This document shows positions 25,549 through 33,605 of a stretch of 33,605 nt of DNA, one piece after another; positions within the stretch are counted from its first letter, which is position 1; every line of letters begins with the position of its first letter. Source of the DNA: Nocardiopsis salina YIM 90010 (GTDB taxonomy: Bacteria > Actinomycetota > Actinomycetes > Streptosporangiales > Streptosporangiaceae); NCBI RefSeq assembly GCF_000341025.1, contig NZ_ANBF01000237.1, forward strand, positions 1 to 33,605. Reading direction: 5' to 3'. The position numbers and the translations under genes are program-made. The notes beneath the pieces were generated by a model. The model made no database searches. It was not told where the DNA came from and was given only the letters and a program-made list of their open reading frames with translations.

Positions 25549-25766
25549 TGGGTGAGCACGAAGCGCCGAAGCCCGTGCCCAGCAAGCGCCCGGAGAAGAA
25601 GGTCGTCGCCAGCACCGCGAGCGGCGCCGGCGTGGCCGTGGTCATGTGGCTCGCCGCCCTCGTCGGGCTCGATGTCCCGGCCGGGGTGGCTGAGGCGGTC
25701 GTTGTTCTGGCCGTTGCGGTAGCCGGGTGGCTGGCTCCGCACACGCCCCGCGGCGAGGCGCCGTGA
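25548..25766 (+). CDS. Holin, two membrane helices
   Basis: A 72-residue protein. The ATG at 25548 overlaps the endolysin stop (TGATG). A basic, Pro-rich N-terminus (MGEHEAPKPVPSKRPEKK) precedes two membrane helices (ASGAGVAVVMWLAALVGL and GVAEAVVVLAVAVAGWLA) joined by a short DVPA turn. This is a class II holin layout and the position after the endolysin fits. It would open the membrane for lysin release. The stop overlaps the glycosyltransferase GTG (GTGA). Confidence 0.78.
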   Translation: MGEHEAPKPVPSKRPEKKVVASTASGAGVAVVMWLAALVGLDVPAGVAEAVVVLAVAVAGWLAPHTPRGEAP

Positions 25767-26401
25767 TCCCGAAGATTCTGCACGCTTGGTGGGGCGGTCC
25801 GGAGATGCCGCCCCACCTGGTCGCCTACCTCGACGAGTGGCGGAGGCTCCATCCGGGATGGGAGTTCCGCCTGTGGACTCCCGAGACCACACCGCACCTC
25901 GGTGCGTATCAGGACCTCTACGAGCACCCCGAGATCTACTCGCCCAAGAGCAACGTGTGGCAGTGGCGCTCTGACCTCGCGCGGTACCGGATCCTGCACA
26001 CCTACGGCGGGGTGTATGTCGACGCTGATCTCGAACCGCTCCGCCCGGTCGATGACCTCCTCGACAACACCGCGTTCATCGCCGAGGAGGGGCGGGGGTT
26101 CATCAACAACGCGTTCATGGGTGCCATCCCCGGATCCGCGTGGATGGAGGACGTGCTCGCGGGGCTCCGCGCCTCGGTGCTTGCACAGCCGCGGGCGCGG
26201 TCGAACCGCCAGCTCGGCGCCCACTACCTCACCCGAGTCGCCCGCAGGCACCCCGAACTCACGGTGTTGCCCACCGAGCTGGTGTACCCGTTCCACTGGA
26301 GCGAGCTCGACCAGCGCGACCGTCCCGCCGTCGACGGTGCTTACACGCGCCATCACTGGCACAACAAAACGACGCAGGTCGAGAGCGAGGTGGTCGTGTG
26401 A
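25763..26401 (+). CDS. DXD-type glycosyltransferase (OCH1-like)
   Basis: A 212-residue enzyme from a GTG coupled to the holin gene (GTGA). IPKILHAWWGG is the usual opening of the sugar-transferase family with DXD motif (Gly_transf_sug). SDLARYRILHTYGGVYVDADLEPL contains the metal/sugar-nucleotide binding D87 and D89 and is the most conserved part. INNAFMGAIPGSAWM follows. The donor and acceptor are unknown. It is encoded in the late operon, after lysis genes, so it may decorate virion proteins or change the host cell wall glycans, which would alter receptors. Confidence 0.84.
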   Translation: MIPKILHAWWGGPEMPPHLVAYLDEWRRLHPGWEFRLWTPETTPHLGAYQDLYEHPEIYSPKSNVWQWRSDLARYRILHTYGGVYVDADLEPLRPVDDLLDNTAFIAEEGRGFINNAFMGAIPGSAWMEDVLAGLRASVLAQPRARSNRQLGAHYLTRVARRHPELTVLPTELVYPFHWSELDQRDRPAVDGAYTRHHWHNKTTQVESEVVV

Positions 26402-27093
26402 GGCTGTCCGCCACGATCATGGCCCACCCCGTGCGTGAGGACAGCGCCGAGCGGGTCCGGGCCGCGCTCGATCGGGACGTGGAGATCATCTACGACACCG
26501 AGGCGGAGCCGTCGAAGGATCCTCGCCAGCGTTGGCGCACCGGCCGGCGCGCGTGGGAAGCCCACGACCCCGAAGCGGACTACCACCTCGTGCTCCAGGA
26601 CGACGCGCTCATCTCCCGCGACCTGATCACGGGACTGGAGAAGGCCCTCGACGTCCTGGGACCCGAAGGGCTGGTGTCCGCGTACACCGGCACCGGGCGC
26701 CCGAACCAGACGCACGTTCGTCGCGCCCTGTCCCGCGCCACGGACCGTGACGACGCGTGGATGACGACACGTTCACTGTGCTGGGGCGTCGCTATCCTCA
26801 CCCCGGTGCACACGATCGGCGACATGCTCCGCTGGTGCTCGCACGGGAGCAAAAGCCGGATGCCCTACGACATGCGCATAGGCAGGTACTACAGGGATCG
26901 GCTCCGGTGGCGCACCTGGTACACGGTGCCGAGCCTGGTCGAGCACCAGGACGGCGAATCCCTTTGCGGAAACGGCCGCGGCTCCTCGCGGGTGGCGCAC
27001 CAGTTCCTCGGCGAGGACGCATCGGCCCTGACGGTCGACTGGACACGCACCCCGCCGTCCGGGCTCCCGACCCTGCACACTGTCCCTGCTTGA
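26398..27093 (+). CDS. Second putative glycosyltransferase, GT-A-like
   Basis: A 231-residue protein from a GTG overlapping the previous stop (GTGA). LSATIMAHPVREDSAERVRAAL opens like a GT2-type fold, and the segment YHLVLQDDALISRDL carries an acidic pair (D68, D69) where a metal-binding DXD-like motif would lie. A later stretch (WMTTRSLCWGVAILTP) and VEHQDGESLCGNG complete the pattern seen in actinophage glycosyltransferases. No membrane segment. It is unrelated in sequence to the enzyme before it. The two are probably made from one message and may act in order on the same glycan; the target is unknown. Confidence 0.72.
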   Translation: MRLSATIMAHPVREDSAERVRAALDRDVEIIYDTEAEPSKDPRQRWRTGRRAWEAHDPEADYHLVLQDDALISRDLITGLEKALDVLGPEGLVSAYTGTGRPNQTHVRRALSRATDRDDAWMTTRSLCWGVAILTPVHTIGDMLRWCSHGSKSRMPYDMRIGRYYRDRLRWRTWYTVPSLVEHQDGESLCGNGRGSSRVAHQFLGEDASALTVDWTRTPPSGLPTLHTVPA

Positions 27094-27154: not shown

Positions 27155-27292
27155 TCAGGACTCGTCGGTCTCGTCGGCGTCGAGGTCGATGCCGAGGTAC
27201 TCGGCAATGGCGTAGGCGCCTTCAGCGCCCGTGGCGGTGAGGATCTCGGCGAGCTGGGCTTGGTCGTCCCGGGTCAGGGGGTCATCGTCCAT
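27155..27292 (-). CDS. 45-residue acidic peptide, last gene of the minus operon
   Basis: ATG at 27292, 18 nt after the acetyltransferase stop. The sequence is very acidic: DDDPLTRDDQAQLAEILT, then EGAYAIAEYLGIDLDADETDES. Residues 7 to 34 would make two amphipathic helices resembling a small carrier- or adaptor-like domain. The ribosome binding site is weak, so it may depend on coupling. It was not long enough for most gene callers, but it has coherent composition and fills the space exactly up to the terminator. It could be a second peptide substrate, an immunity or an accessory protein; none is shown. Confidence 0.5.
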   Translation of the reverse strand: MDDDPLTRDDQAQLAEILTATGAEGAYAIAEYLGIDLDADETDES

Positions 27293-27310
27293 GCACAGGG
27301 TGTACCCGGT

Positions 27311-27835
27311 TCAGGCTCGGGTGATCCGGCCGGAGAGCAGGCTGTCCAGGTCAGGACGTACCTCCGCTGCGCGCGTCAGGAACGTGCACACCTTGCCCCT
27401 GCGATCGACCTCCCGCAGGACCGTCCACCCCTGCACGCGCGTGTAGTACCGGACCAGCTCCGGAGCGAACGTGCCCCGTCGCACCTCCTGATGCCCGGTC
27501 CGAGCGGCGTGGCCAAGAGCCCACCGCGCCAATACCCACCCCAACCGGCGGTCGTTCGGGACGGTCCACGTCGAGGCGAGGAACACCGCCGGGATGTCTC
27601 GTTCCTCCTCGGTGAACGCCCACGCCGGCGATTCCGTGTAGGTGGTGGTGCAGCCTGCGATCTCACCGTCGTCGAGCAGGACCCAGTTTGGGGTCTCGTC
27701 GCCGGCCTGTTCGGCCATGGCGGCCGCGGCTCGGAGACTCACCCCGACCCGACGCTCCTCCAACCACTGCACGCGCCGGGACACCATGTCCTCGATGCCC
27801 TCGGCGTCGTCGGCGACCGCCGGTCGAATCTCCAT
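27311..27835 (-). CDS. GNAT-family N-acetyltransferase
   Basis: A 174-residue acetyltransferase. EIRPAVADDAEGIEDMVSRRVQWLEE is the GNAT opening, WVLLDDGEIAGCTTTY is the central beta pair, and NDRRLGWVLARWALGHAARTG matches the acetyl-CoA pyrophosphate-binding region in a slightly divergent RxLGW form. The end (ELVRYYTRVQGWTVLREVDR) has the usual FY-x-x-x-GW signature. The ATG at 27835 overlaps the stop of the asparagine-synthetase-like gene (TGATG); a GTG one codon earlier is possible. The cluster for albusnodin, an acetylated lasso peptide, also pairs a macrolactam synthetase with a GNAT enzyme, so peptide Lys or amine acetylation is a reasonable guess here. Confidence 0.8.
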   Translation of the reverse strand: MEIRPAVADDAEGIEDMVSRRVQWLEERRVGVSLRAAAAMAEQAGDETPNWVLLDDGEIAGCTTTYTESPAWAFTEEERDIPAVFLASTWTVPNDRRLGWVLARWALGHAARTGHQEVRRGTFAPELVRYYTRVQGWTVLREVDRRGKVCTFLTRAAEVRPDLDSLLSGRITRA

Positions 27836-29427
27836 CACACCCGTGTCCTTCCCCGCAAGCTGCGCACGCCCACTTCCAGTATCAACGGCCGGTACACATC
27901 AAAGGTCCTGCCACCGGTGGCTTCGAACTCCGCCGCGGAGCGGTGAAGCTCCTCGCCGTCGAGGTAGCCCTCCTCGACCAAGAGCGCCCCTTCATCCAAG
28001 AGGTCCCTCAGGAGGCGGCTGCCGTGGCGTCGCATCGACAAGTCCAAGACCTCTTGGAAGGTCTCTTTCAACTCCGGGTGCGAGACGTCTCGGGAGAACC
28101 CCGCCCGTGCCAGCCGGTCCCGCAGCAGACGCTTGTCCGATCTCCACTCGGCCGGCAGCGACTCAGCCAAGCGCACCACCTCGGGAGCCGCGAATGGGGT
28201 GATCGGCCAGATGCCGTGGCGCATGTGCTGGGGGTAGATCGCGGAGAAGCAAGCCAGGATCGACCACAGGGTCGGCCCCAAGGGCGCCGCCCCCTCGAAC
28301 CGGTGCGGGAGAAGCTCCCGGCCGCGGGGCCCGAGGAAGGCCGGCACGCCCCGGACGTGACGCAACGGTGAGTGCGAGGTGAGTCCGAGGGCCTCGCGTT
28401 CGGCCCGTCTGAGTTTCATGGCCTCATCACCACCGAGGCCAGTGAACAACACCCGCTTACCCGCGGACGCGTAGTCCTGGAGGAGGACGTCCCGGGCCTC
28501 GGCGTAGGGGCCTTCGTCGGGGTCGAACGGCACACCGCGACGCCGAGGACCGTCCGGGGCGAACGGTAGATGCTCGGCCATCTCGACCGTATGGTCAGGA
28601 CCGAACCCGTGCGCGAGGAACTCCGAGCGTCGGCGGCGCTGCTGCTTTCCCATGGCTCCGGGGAGCAGCATCGCGCCGGTGCCCACGCGCCCGGGGTAGA
28701 GCTGTGCCAGGGACAGGGCCACGTTGGTGGAGTCCATACCGCCGGACACGTCGGCCACGGTGTGGTCGGGATCGACCTCCCACCGGTCGACCACCCCGGC
28801 GAGCACCTGCTCGAACGCGGCCACCGGGTCAGCGTCGGGGCGGAGTTCACGCGGCAGGGCGTGCATCCCGGGTTCGGGGTAGGTGATCTGCACGTCCGCG
28901 CCGGTGTAGGTGGCGGTGGCTCGCTCGGTGAGGGTGACTACGTCGGCGAGCAGGGTCGCCGAGGAGTAGTAGTTCGCGTAGGTCAGGAACCGCACCACCG
29001 AGAGCGGATCGAGGCGACCGGGGTCGACGTGGTCGACGAGGTCGAGCATGTCCCACGAGCCTCGAAGCGTGCCGTCCGCGGTGGCCAGATGCACGGGCGC
29101 GCACCCCCATTTGCTCGCCTGGATCCTGGCCTTTCCGGCGGTGAGCTCGATGGTGAGGAAGCCCAGCGGCCAGTCATGCACGGTCTCGGCGCGCTGGGTG
29201 TACTCGTCGGCCGTCACGTAGTCGGTGCTGGTGTTCCAGTCGAGGCGACCGCGCACGCGTTCTCGGATGACCATGAGGGTTCGTCCCTCGGTCATGCTCA
29301 TGCGGGATTCGAGGCAGGGGTGCGAGTAGGGCGTGAGGGTGGAGCGCCCGGTCGCCCAACCGGTGGGGGTTGGCCGCCACCGGTCGGGGTGGTGCAGGTC
29401 CTCGGGATGGATGTGGAGCTTGAGCAC
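27835..29427 (-). CDS. Asparagine-synthetase-like ATP-dependent macrolactam cyclase
   Basis: A 530-residue protein from a GTG behind GAGAGGA. The C-terminal synthetase domain is intact: the PP-loop VSGGMDST (S228 to T234) binds ATP, GLGGDE (G330 to E335) is the second conserved loop, and ITPFAAPEVVRLAESLP with SDKRLLRDRL closes the site. Such a domain adenylates a carboxylate and joins it to an amine. The N-terminal domain starts MLKLHIHPED and has no catalytic Cys2, so it cannot release ammonia from glutamine, as in lasso-peptide cyclases and beta-lactam synthetases. With two tiny peptides upstream and a GNAT gene downstream, a peptide macrolactam product is likely. Other amide-forming roles on small molecules remain open. 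Confidence 0.78.
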   Translation of the reverse strand: MLKLHIHPEDLHHPDRWRPTPTGWATGRSTLTPYSHPCLESRMSMTEGRTLMVIRERVRGRLDWNTSTDYVTADEYTQRAETVHDWPLGFLTIELTAGKARIQASKWGCAPVHLATADGTLRGSWDMLDLVDHVDPGRLDPLSVVRFLTYANYYSSATLLADVVTLTERATATYTGADVQITYPEPGMHALPRELRPDADPVAAFEQVLAGVVDRWEVDPDHTVADVSGGMDSTNVALSLAQLYPGRVGTGAMLLPGAMGKQQRRRRSEFLAHGFGPDHTVEMAEHLPFAPDGPRRRGVPFDPDEGPYAEARDVLLQDYASAGKRVLFTGLGGDEAMKLRRAEREALGLTSHSPLRHVRGVPAFLGPRGRELLPHRFEGAAPLGPTLWSILACFSAIYPQHMRHGIWPITPFAAPEVVRLAESLPAEWRSDKRLLRDRLARAGFSRDVSHPELKETFQEVLDLSMRRHGSRLLRDLLDEGALLVEEGYLDGEELHRSAAEFEATGGRTFDVYRPLILEVGVRSLRGRTRV

Positions 29428-29449
29428 GGGGGTCCTCTCCGAAACGAGA

Positions 29450-29475
29450 GCGGGGCGGCCGTGTGGCCGCCCCGC
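29450..29475 (-). terminator. Strong hairpin between small peptide gene and cyclase
   Basis: Perfect 11-bp stem GCGGGGCGGCC/GGCCGCCCCGC with a 4-nt loop, in the 61-nt gap between the 40-residue peptide gene and the cyclase gene, on the minus strand. No U-tract follows. Attenuating hairpins after the precursor gene are common in RiPP operons, where they keep peptide mRNA high and enzyme mRNA low. Confidence 0.65.
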
Positions 29476-29488
29476 GGGGGGTAGAGGG

Positions 29489-29611
29489 TTAGATCTCGTC
29501 GTACTGCTTGGGGGCGTCCCCGTCGCCCTTGACCTTGGTGTACTCGTCGGCCTGGTCAGGGACGGCGAGCTTCTGGGGGGTCTGGAACAGGTCCTCGATG
29601 ATCTCGTTCAC
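29489..29611 (-). CDS. 40-residue peptide, candidate precursor peptide
   Basis: GTG start with AAGGA 8 nt upstream, 24 nt after the previous small gene and directly before the strong hairpin and the cyclase gene. The N-terminal part NEIIEDLFQTPQKLAVPD is amphipathic and leader-like. The C-terminal part (ADEYTKVKGDGDAPKQYDEI) is short, flexible and rich in Asp/Glu and Lys, so carboxylates and amines that an amide-forming enzyme could join are available. It does not match the standard lasso rule (Thr at -2 and Gly at 1 with Asp/Glu 7 to 9 residues on) in an obvious way. That it is the substrate is inferred from position and composition. Confidence 0.6.
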   Translation of the reverse strand: MNEIIEDLFQTPQKLAVPDQADEYTKVKGDGDAPKQYDEI

Positions 29612-29635
29612 GGGGCAGTCCTTCCAGTCGTTGGG

Positions 29636-29749
29636 CTACTTGCCGTTCTTCTTCTCGTTGCGAAGGCGGTCGGCCTCTTCCTCGGCCTCCTTCTCGGCCT
29701 TGGTCAGGGGGCGGTCGGCCCGGGGGTCGTCGGCGTCGTAGGTCTTCAC
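29636..29749 (-). CDS. 37-residue highly charged peptide
   Basis: GTG at 29749 with an excellent ribosome binding site (GAGGAGG) on its strand. The peptide is KTYDADDPRADRPLTKAEK followed by a helix of Glu/Ala/Lys (EAEEEADRLRNEKKNGK). It is too short and charged to be an enzyme. Its strong initiation signal, a structured leader in front, and the two-peptide arrangement before the cyclase suggest an abundant small product. It could be a second precursor, a carrier of the lysines acetylated by the GNAT protein, or an unrelated protein. No family recognised. Confidence 0.55.
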   Translation of the reverse strand: MKTYDADDPRADRPLTKAEKEAEEEADRLRNEKKNGK

Positions 29750-29779
29750 GTGGTTCCTCCTCGGCTGTGGTCGGGTGGA

Positions 29780-29846
29780 GGGTGCGGCCGGTTGGGGTGC
29801 CCCGTCTGGGGAGTCGGGGCGTTGTGTGTTGTCGCCGGCCGCACCC
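29780..29846 (-). promoter_or_regulatory. Nested hairpin leader before the small peptide genes
   Basis: Perfect 12-bp arms CCGGGTGCGGCCGG-type: GGGTGCGGCCGG (29780-29791) and CCGGCCGCACCC (29835-29846), enclosing an inner GCCCCG/CGGGGC hairpin. On the minus strand it ends about 30 nt before the GTG of the 37-residue peptide, in the roughly 200-nt gap that has no gene. It could be an attenuator, an mRNA stabiliser or a ligand-sensing leader. Confidence 0.55.
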
Positions 29847-29947: not shown

Positions 29948-30136
29948 TCAGGCAGCGACCGGGATCGGCTCGGCGATCTCCAAGAGCGCCACGAGATTCA
30001 ACGCCTGCGTGTCCCCCGTCGCGACCCGCGCCTCCCACCGGCGGCGCCGGTGAAGGTGGTCAAGCACGTAGGGGCGCACGACCAGACGACCCGGGAGCGG
30101 GCGCTCGGCCGGAACAGTCAGCAGCTCCCTTGCCAC
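29948..30136 (-). CDS. 62-residue basic protein, unknown
   Basis: GTG at 30136, overlapping the end of the preceding small gene by 19 nt, with GGGGGTGG upstream. The middle is strongly basic (VVRPYVLDHLHRRRRWEARVATGD) and the end is hydrophobic (LNLVALLEIAEPIPVAA). No family recognised. Its place in a tight string of small genes behind the GntR-controlled promoter argues that it is real. Confidence 0.5.
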   Translation of the reverse strand: MARELLTVPAERPLPGRLVVRPYVLDHLHRRRRWEARVATGDTQALNLVALLEIAEPIPVAA

Positions 30137-30336
30137 GGGGCCACCCCCTGACCGATCGCCTTACCGGGGTCGTGGAGGCGTGCCTCCAGTTCCTGCGGGG
30201 TGGGCTCCATGAGCGTCGGCGTGACACCGGTACCGGAACGTCGTGGGTTGGCGATCCACCAGTTCGGAGTCCGCCAAATACGCCACGTCTTGCCGTAGGT
30301 GCGCTGGAGGTAGTCGAGCACGGGATCCTCGGTCAT
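30118..30336 (-). CDS. 72-residue small protein, paralogue of its neighbour
   Basis: ATG at 30336 overlaps the previous stop (ATGA). Sequence LDYLQRTYGKTWRIWRTPNWWIANPRR, then TPQELEARLHDPG. It shares the frame YGxxWxIxRT, WxAxRR and TxxELxAxL with the gene before it, so the two are tandem paralogues. Proteins of this shape (Trp-rich beta strands then a TxEEL helix) are common in actinomycetes next to GntR or XRE regulators; function is unknown. Confidence 0.62.
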   Translation of the reverse strand: MTEDPVLDYLQRTYGKTWRIWRTPNWWIANPRRSGTGVTPTLMEPTPQELEARLHDPGKAIGQGVAPWQGSC

Positions 30337-32830: not shown

Positions 32831-33605
32831 CTACACGGCCACCGGGAGATCGGCCATGGCCGCTCGGACCGTGGCCAGGATCCGACGCCCGGTGCGCTCG
32901 GACACGCGGCCGTGGCCAGACTCGGCCAGCAGCGCCACGATGTCCGCGCCGGTGGCCGAGTCCGCGGTCACCTCGGTCGCCGGGTCGGTCAGCCACTCCA
33001 TGACCCTCTCCTCTCGGTCCCCGATGGTCACGGGAGCCGGGGCGGACACAGCCACTGTGTCCGGGGACGTGGTCGTCGCCGCGGCGGCGCGGGTAGGGGC
33101 GAGGACCTCGACCGCGGACACGAGACGTCCGCCGCAGATGACCGGGCTCTCGTCGGACAGCGGCGCGACCAGTTCCTCGACAGTGGTCACCTGGTGGCAG
33201 ATCACCGGCCGGACGTCTTCATTGGCCACGGGCAGGGACTCGACGAGGCTGGCCACGGACACGATGGCGCCGCAGATCACCGGACGCGCGTCCGGCGCGG
33301 CCACGGGGACCGTCCCGGCCAGGGTGGCCACCGGCACCACGGGGCCACAGATGACCGGACGTGCGGACACGGCCGACGCCTCGCGCTCGGCCTGTTCCCC
33401 GCCCACTGCACGGGCAGCGGCCACGCGGACCATGACCGTGGCCACGGGGATGGTGCGGCCGCCGCAGATGGCCGGACGGCGATGGTCACCATGAGCGGAC
33501 ACACTGTGCGTGGCCATGGCCAACAGGTACGCCATCTCGGCCACAAGCGGGACCCACACGGCCGCGGCCACTCCCCGCCACCCGTATTGGAGGGCGGGGG
33601 CGGGG
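32831..33605 (-). CDS. Membrane/HTH protein with five RPVICG repeats, 5' truncated
   Basis: The frame is open to the window edge, and reading upstream of the first GTG (33571) gives PALQYGWRGVAAAVWVPLVAEMAYLLAMATHSV, so the gene starts outside. That segment looks like the last membrane helix of a DUF2637-type protein. Next come five repeats of 22 to 38 residues each beginning RPxICG or a variant (RPAICGG, RPVICGP, RPVICGA, RPVICHQ, SPVICGG) followed by Val/Ala-rich strands. The C-terminus (ADIVALLAESGHGRVSERTGRRILATVRAA) is a helix-turn-helix. Membrane part plus DNA-binding end is the shape of transfer or spread proteins of actinomycete plasmids and integrative elements. The role is inferred. 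Confidence 0.65.
   Translation of the reverse strand, partial: PAPALQYGWRGVAAAVWVPLVAEMAYLLAMATHSVSAHGDHRRPAICGGRTIPVATVMVRVAAARAVGGEQAEREASAVSARPVICGPVVPVATLAGTVPVAAPDARPVICGAIVSVASLVESLPVANEDVRPVICHQVTTVEELVAPLSDESPVICGGRLVSAVEVLAPTRAAAATTTSPDTVAVSAPAPVTIGDREERVMEWLTDPATEVTADSATGADIVALLAESGHGRVSERTGRRILATVRAAMADLPVAV

Follow-up and report, generated by a model that had tools for sequence, protein, structure and literature searches.

Several described systems bear on the operon considered here. The lasso peptide triculamin is cyc(SKKSKPGD)GIRGKGVRG (PMC13192320) and lariocidin is SKKSKPGDGKFGRGVKRG (PMC12427821); the lariocidin lrc cluster has both B1 and B2 (PMC11451635). Albusnodin is acetylated at Lys10, and its genes run in the order A-C-B-T (PMC9266682, PMC8498205). 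The lactams of microviridin are formed by ATP-grasp ligases (PMC4979651). The present system lies on a 33,605-nucleotide stretch of Nocardiopsis salina YIM 90010 (contig NZ_ANBF01000237.1, positions 1 to 33,605), the whole of which is called the window. It consists of genes for a 40-residue peptide (A), an asparagine-synthetase-like ligase (C) and a GNAT-like acetyltransferase (T). We put at about an even chance the proposal that A, C and T represent an undescribed family of ribosomally synthesized and post-translationally modified peptides (RiPPs), in which the ligase would join an invariant Asp to a Lys side chain, a chemistry suggested by residue conservation.

An earlier sequence-only reading of the window had described a RiPP-type set on the minus strand, with a strong hairpin, a ligase with SGGMDST and GLGGDE loops and no glutaminase Cys, and an overlapping acetyltransferase. 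All of these items were found in the sequence, and the A-C-T operon is intact. Its parts are as follows.

29489..29611, minus strand: precursor peptide A, 40 residues, MNEIIEDLFQTPQKLAVPDQADEYTKVKGDGDAPKQYDEI; GTG start; leader-like part with a conserved LF motif
29516..29536, minus strand: putative ring-forming stretch of the core, Lys26 to Asp32 (K V K G D G D); both end residues are invariant in alignment A4
about 29450..29475, minus strand: GC-rich hairpin between A and C, from minimum free energy (MFE) against shuffled sequences
27835..29427, minus strand: ligase C, 530 residues, asparagine-synthetase/beta-lactam-synthetase-like, from PF00733, the invariant columns of alignment A1 and trees
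27311..27838, minus strand: acetyltransferase T, GNAT-like, 175 residues, overlapping the end of C by 4 nucleotides

Of 298 genomes in the taxonomic family, 31 carry the ligase, the window's genome (G000) counted. The two named relatives are both Nocardiopsis, with 68% (L002) and 65% (L003) identity over the best segment. Small open reading frames (ORFs) of one family were read from the DNA 5' of the ligases, and 29 actinobacterial precursors from 28 loci were aligned as A4; the L050 precursor, picked by eye from a frame translation, was left out. Invariant in A4 are Phe9, within the LF-type motif of the leader, Lys26, Gly29, Asp32 and Asp38. Precursors of the window's group resemble EYTKxxGxSDxPxxYDE[IM], with a constant C-terminal YDE[IM], and most others read [EN]YKKxxGSSDxAxTYDTxxx. 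By eye, purine-rich stretches resembling ribosome-binding sites stand ahead of most precursor homologues. One locus (L044, 9444-9703) has a tandem pair of precursor genes with differing cores and a single ligase. None of seven precursors matched an NCBIfam model.

The A4 profile matched in 27 of the 298 family genomes, all within the 31 that carry the ligase, at 29 places, every one just 5' of the ligase and with no orphan copy; as the profile was built mostly from the same sequences, the matches themselves were expected. Its information lies in the other genomes: among the 298, not one ligase-free genome carries the peptide at E 0.01. The ligase-bearing genomes lacking a peptide match (G143, G165, G263 and G286) carry a fragmentary ligase or one interrupted by a stop. 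A match to T adjoins the ligase at all 33 fetched loci, on the same strand or convergent, the weakest (L061) being a 32-residue piece; the 33 include the window, the two named relatives and some broken ligases. Judged by this joint conservation elsewhere, the set of 40-residue ORF, ligase and T is more than chance and is not an artefact. A RiPP-type A-C-T set with the 40-residue peptide as substrate is supported. The sequence-only reading had itself named homologues with no conserved small peptide nearby as a refutation; this was checked and did not materialise. Its suggestion of a leaderless pathway found no support, as the N-terminal part with the invariant Phe is kept in 29/29 A4 precursors.

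Neither the residue rule that follows nor the spread to rhizobial plasmids was part of the sequence-only reading. Lys and Asp separated by five residues (K-x5-D) occur in 27 of 27 representative divergent precursors, which include close relatives and so are not 27 independent events. This is the sole universal residue pair, the runner-up being found in 18. Composition shuffles (2000) gave a mean of 5.2 and a maximum of 12 of 27, and no residue pair exceeded 17 in any of 60 shuffled sets. The background of K-x5-D in small ORFs was 77 of 4813 when core-like strings were dropped, and 86 of 5348 (29/3101, 53/1968 and 4/279) when only precursor tails were dropped.

Searching with the window's ligase by tblastn gave 43 plasmid records at 26.5-35% identity (24 Rhizobium, 12 Bradyrhizobium, 3 Streptomyces, 2 Mesorhizobium, 1 Aminobacter and 1 Xanthomonas), and two other ligase queries gave 54 and 50. 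In a sample of the phylum the profile of the ligase alignment A1 matched in 9 of 396 genomes, strongly in G000 and G468 only and at E 2e-9 or weaker in the rest. Nineteen plasmid loci (L123-L141), some near-identical, were examined by eye, and all 19 have a K-x5-D ORF upstream of the ligase; in ten (L123, L125-L127, L130-L134 and L141) that ORF was already annotated as a protein. The rule was fixed first and then tested on new loci, obtained with a broad profile from 394 class genomes, of which 13 matched at E 1e-25. Among the new intact loci, all 5 that could be tested (L148-L152) had the motif upstream. A sixth new intact ligase (G816) has only N upstream and was not scorable, and a broken second ligase copy in G900 also has K-x5-D.

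The ligase has intact SGGMDST and GLGGDE loops and has Leu, not Cys, at position 2. Its sole Pfam match was PF00733 (Asn_synthase; 29.8 bits, cut-off 21). Alignment A1 holds 27 ligases, the partial ligases L057-L062 being excluded, and GG.DS and G.GGDE are invariant in it; A5 gave the same result, with the final Glu nearly invariant, so the ATP loop of the superfamily is present. Position 2 is Leu in 23 of the A1 ligases, Phe in 3 and Trp in 1 (L055, whose start is uncertain), and the glutaminase Cys is accordingly missing from all 27. Among solved sequences beta-lactam synthetase comes closest (E 3.7e-9, or 8.4e-13 with a broader profile), with a hydroxyamidotransferase and CarA (E 1.7e-6) also near.

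Relationship to the lasso cyclases is distant. The ligase aligned with them by hhalign at probability 98.7 and 16% identity, and the A1 profile gave weak matches on the cyclases of lasso loci (best E 3.4e-7). Against NF033535, 2 of 27 A1 members matched weakly; against the albusnodin/ikarugamycin cyclase model NF033561, 20 of 27 matched at E <=0.01 (best E 2.4e-8), and the window's ligase scored 14.3 bits, far under the cut-off of 300. Two trees were built, both with 27 family ligases and 10 lasso cyclases, and each separated the two sets with 100/100 support; lasso locus L116 was dropped because of a doubtful ORF. By the tests applied, the family is not within the known lasso families, and filing the operon with albusnodin could not be upheld. 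The profile of T (A2) likewise matched nothing at E 1 in 11 lasso and albusnodin loci (L107-L117), AlbT being outside the comparison.

The sequence-only reading had noted the absence of B1 and B2 proteins, and this was borne out near the ligase in all 31 genomes. PF13471 (lasso B2) matched in 23 of the 31, on other contigs or far off, and PF05402 (B1, with the RiPP recognition element, RRE) in 18. The closest match to either on the same contig as a ligase is about 244 kb away (G297). Eight genomes had no PF13471 match (G071, G099, G136, G176, G202, G204, G224 and G232), and three of them (G176, G202 and G204) matched neither family. These are draft assemblies, not all of them complete (84% for G136), and the ligase in some stands on a short contig (5.5 kb in G277, 8 kb in G071), where a B2 gene beyond the contig end is possible. 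Clustering of the ORFs around the 33 loci, judged by eye, brought out the ligase, T, the precursor and regulator-like genes (16 and 15 loci). No common transporter or peptidase was seen by eye in these clusters or in the record annotation, no family search having been made, and no common ATP-grasp gene was seen by eye among the clusters, no ATP-grasp profile having been searched.

T was compared with solved sequences by profile. The best match was puromycin N-acetyltransferase (E 0.002 overall, none of the individual stretches passing), and a named GNAT followed at E 0.0073; Pfam and NCBIfam gave no meaningful match. On these weak grounds T is taken as a putative GNAT. The A2 profile, run on plasmid loci L123-L135, found no match there.

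We consider it likely that the operon encodes a peptide macrolactam pathway with this Asp as the acyl donor. By analogy, the related enzymes (beta-lactam synthetase, CarA and the lasso cyclases), which make intramolecular amides, count in favor of a macrolactam. Whether Lys is the nucleophile is evenly balanced in our judgment. It is preferred because Lys is universal while residue 1 of the possible core varies, because Lys persists without an A2-type GNAT, and because no dedicated protease was seen that would free residue 1. In the proposed pathway the ligase would bind the N-terminal part of A directly and, with ATP, adenylate the side-chain carboxylate of Asp32. The activated Asp32 would be attacked by the side-chain amine of Lys26, closing a Lys-Asp macrolactam with about 26 atoms in the ring and leaving a short tail. 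Leader trimming would come after ring closure, by a general peptidase. T would then acetylate the product at the freed N-terminus or at another amine, probably for self-protection, and the A-C hairpin would keep the substrate above the enzyme in amount. With a side chain as nucleophile, no dedicated protease (B2) or RRE (B1) would be needed before ring closure.

Stated in full, the proposal is of a new RiPP class in Actinomycetota and on plasmids of rhizobia and Xanthomonas. An asparagine-synthetase-type ligase free of RRE and protease would form a Lys(i)-Asp(i+6) side-chain lactam, similar in size to a lasso ring and possibly threaded, and the products would be antibiotics guarded by acetyl- and phosphotransferases. 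We hold this full version tentatively, with rather less than even confidence. Searches of an open-licence library turned up no description of an A-C-T family, which is not proof of novelty.

A number of observations weigh against Lys-Asp ring closure. We know of no asparagine-synthetase-fold enzyme that uses a Lys side chain on a peptide. Lys432 of the window's ligase is invariant in A1, and the aligned residue is Arg in L128, L130 and L131, which is a point against uniform catalysis. An AlphaFold model of the ligase made from three sequences had a mean predicted local distance difference test score of 34.8. At L124, L128, L129, L135-L140 and the test loci, the choice of precursor from several small ORFs was made with knowledge of the rule; at L124 and L139 the annotated small protein upstream has no K-x5-D; and the partial ligases of G899 and G876 have no K-x5-D ORF upstream. 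In the L002 core the invariant Lys is the sole Lys, so T would need another target. Finally, two GNAT-associated lasso peptides, triculamin and lariocidin, share Lys2 and Asp8, and the same spacing can therefore fit a ring from residue 1 to Asp8.

This last point leads to the main alternative, in which a general host protease would cut directly before residue 1 (Thr25) and the ligase would join the freed amine to Asp8 (Asp32). The product would have an eight-residue ring and a short tail, threaded or not, with T acetylating Lys2 as self-resistance. By our own count the ring from the residue-1 amine to Asp8 has 25 atoms and that from the Lys2 side chain to Asp8 has 26. If the core begins one residue before Lys, then Lys2 and Asp8 are found in 27/27 precursors, and the universal Asp at position 8 falls within the lasso ring range of Asp/Glu at 7-9. 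The distant relationship of the ligase to lasso cyclases fits this alternative, as does the spacing of residue 1, Lys2 and Asp8 shared with triculamin and lariocidin; the rhizobial IKGGKPGD and PKRRLPGD are especially similar to these two. Tyr, Phe or Trp occurs in many, not all, tails and could act as a plug. Pseudomycoidin can reportedly be formed without a leader and a leader peptidase. A review describes Lys acetylation as self-resistance for triculamin and lariocidin (PMC13352647); in the lariocidin preprint it is hypothesised only (PMC11451635).

Against this, B1 and B2 are present in the lariocidin cluster, whereas neither has a match near the ligase here and eight of the 31 genomes have no PF13471 match. 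With the cut before Thr25, the penultimate leader residue in the window would be Glu, not the usual Thr, and the earlier remark that the core departs from the usual lasso rule was supported. Among the 27 precursors Lys is preceded by different residues (K 8, T 7, D 3, P 3, E 2, I 2, H 1 and M 1). Such variation would hardly be compatible with an N-terminal nucleophile, least of all Pro, which stands there in two rhizobial lineages. The invariant Lys is also retained where no A2-type GNAT was found (L123-L125, L158, L160 and L162), and acetylation by such a GNAT therefore does not explain it. We regard a residue-1 ring as doubtful, though a serious competitor to the Lys-Asp lactam.

A different amide on A is improbable. 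Here the ligase would activate Asp38 or the C-terminus and join it to a small amine or to Lys. In its favor, Asp38 is invariant in the 29 A4 precursors and the YDE[IM] end is fixed in the window's group. Against it, several plasmid precursors, e.g., TKFLVRGDSARYRY, retain Lys-x5-Asp but have no second Asp.

Less probable still is a small-molecule pathway with a ligase like beta-lactam or carbapenam synthetase, the small ORF being a regulatory or attenuator peptide. Beta-lactam and carbapenam synthetases have no working glutaminase, and their substrates are small molecules. The nearest solved sequences named above would suit such a pathway, as would the strong hairpin 3' of the ORF in 11 of 26 loci. 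However, the core residues of the peptide are kept over great distance, even where there is no hairpin, and no small-molecule genes were seen by eye among the ORF clusters common to the loci. Finally, an albusnodin-type lasso cluster that has lost its own B gene and borrows one in trans from the second cluster (C87) of the same genome, whose cyclase scores 479 bits and which has a PF13471 match and its own GNAT by eye, is highly unlikely given that the 27 homologues occupy a separate side of the tree, that eight of 31 genomes have no PF13471 match and that the precursors are by eye unlike lasso precursors.

The hairpin between A and C was examined across loci. In the window the 61-nucleotide gap has an MFE of -34.9, versus -22.3 (standard deviation, sd, 3.0) for dinucleotide shuffles, and the gap lies at least 2 sd under its own shuffles in 11 of 26 loci. 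Seven loci whose gap is about 42 nucleotides (L036, L038, L040-L042, L045 and L051) showed no hairpin. The hairpin is probably a partial terminator or an element that sets an expression ratio.

Two further small ORFs flank the operon.

29636..29749, minus strand: 37-residue ORF, GTG start, open reading frame only
27155..27292, minus strand: 45-residue ORF, open reading frame only

Both had been counted as pathway peptides by the sequence-only reading; neither had a significant match in the 33 loci searched, and both were rejected. A 72-residue ORF (30118-30336, minus strand) lies 5' of the operon and has relatives near L040 (E 9e-7), L045 (E 9e-6) and L038 (E 7e-4). In L037, L038, L039, L041, L055 and L058 a methyltransferase gene, PIMT-like by eye, lies a few kb from the ligase; elsewhere among RiPPs, methyltransferases of this kind are associated with the formation of aspartimide. 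As a member of the set this methyltransferase was rejected, being found at 7 of 33 loci by clustering and 6 by tblastn, at varying distance, with none seen in the window.

To the left of the operon the window holds phage genes. Seven of nine tested ORFs between 812 and 25766 on the plus strand match phage families (primase, terminase, portal, major head, tape measure, endolysin and holin). The peptide operon follows shortly to their right, and by eye the homologous locus L002 has no phage genes nearby. That A, C and T are themselves a phage gene set was rejected: they had no match in 50,697 phage records, and 104 pattern matches among viral contigs included no confirmed relative. After the holin come overlapping plus-strand ORFs at 25727-26401, which by eye resembles a sugar-transfer enzyme and has no PHROG match, and at 26140-27093. 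An ORF at 32831-33571 (minus strand) has about five (R/S)P(A/V)IC(G/H) repeats by eye and no PHROG match. Elsewhere in the genome, C87 (L107, 4407-7439) is an albusnodin-type cluster with a precursor-like ORF, its cyclase score being against NF033561, and a second lasso-type locus, C204, scores 198 bits and has PF13471 and PF05402 matches.

On the Rhizobium plasmids, L132-L134 and L141 share the order acyl-homoserine lactone synthase (rhiI-type), 52-residue peptide, ligase. In L126 the first gene, before the 52-residue peptide and ligase, is annotated as a GNAT. These five loci lie near rhiA or nifHDK. The rhiI gene of R. leguminosarum 3841 (pRL100164) is reported to be rhizosphere-induced (PMC3333776); the word "asparagine" does not occur in the main text of that paper. 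In L132 (4791-6374; R. johnstonii 3841 pRL10) the ligase ORF is broken, its annotation being that of a truncated protein, and this strain may make no product. Phosphotransferase and GNAT genes are annotated 3' of the ligase in L130 and L136-L138, and a phosphotransferase in L128 and L139; these look like self-resistance genes.

If the Lys-Asp lactam is correct, a two-gene system of a 40-residue peptide and one ligase would yield an isopeptide macrocycle without a leader protease, a very simple macrolactam RiPP machinery that would be easy to engineer. The family products are possible peptide antibiotics, and the location on rhizobial plasmids, next to quorum-sensing, nif and resistance-like genes, suggests that the family takes part in root-zone competition. 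Genome mining seeded on lasso B proteins would be expected to overlook the A-C-T family. The Lys-x5-Asp rule makes it searchable and its chemistry directly testable.

Among known systems, triculamin and lariocidin are alike in having an asparagine-synthetase-like cyclase, a GNAT and a short core with Lys2 and Asp8. They differ in the B1, B2 and ABC transporter of the lariocidin cluster, whereas the A-C-T set has no B1/B2 match nearby; further, their cores are strongly cationic, residue 1 is not fixed in the A family, and their cyclases were outside the trees. The albusnodin type (NF033561, A-C-B-T) shares the ligase superfamily and a GNAT gene in the cluster, but the A-C-T set has no B, its ligase falls far below the model's cut-off, its precursor is unlike, and A2 is unmatched in the 11 loci. 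Graspetides of the microviridin type have the side-chain Lys-to-acid macrolactam that is the product proposed here; there the ring is closed by an ATP-grasp ligase, and here it would be closed by an asparagine-synthetase-like (PF00733) enzyme. The beta-lactam and carbapenam synthetases are related in sequence and form an intramolecular amide, whereas the ligase of the A-C-T set is tied to a gene-encoded peptide.

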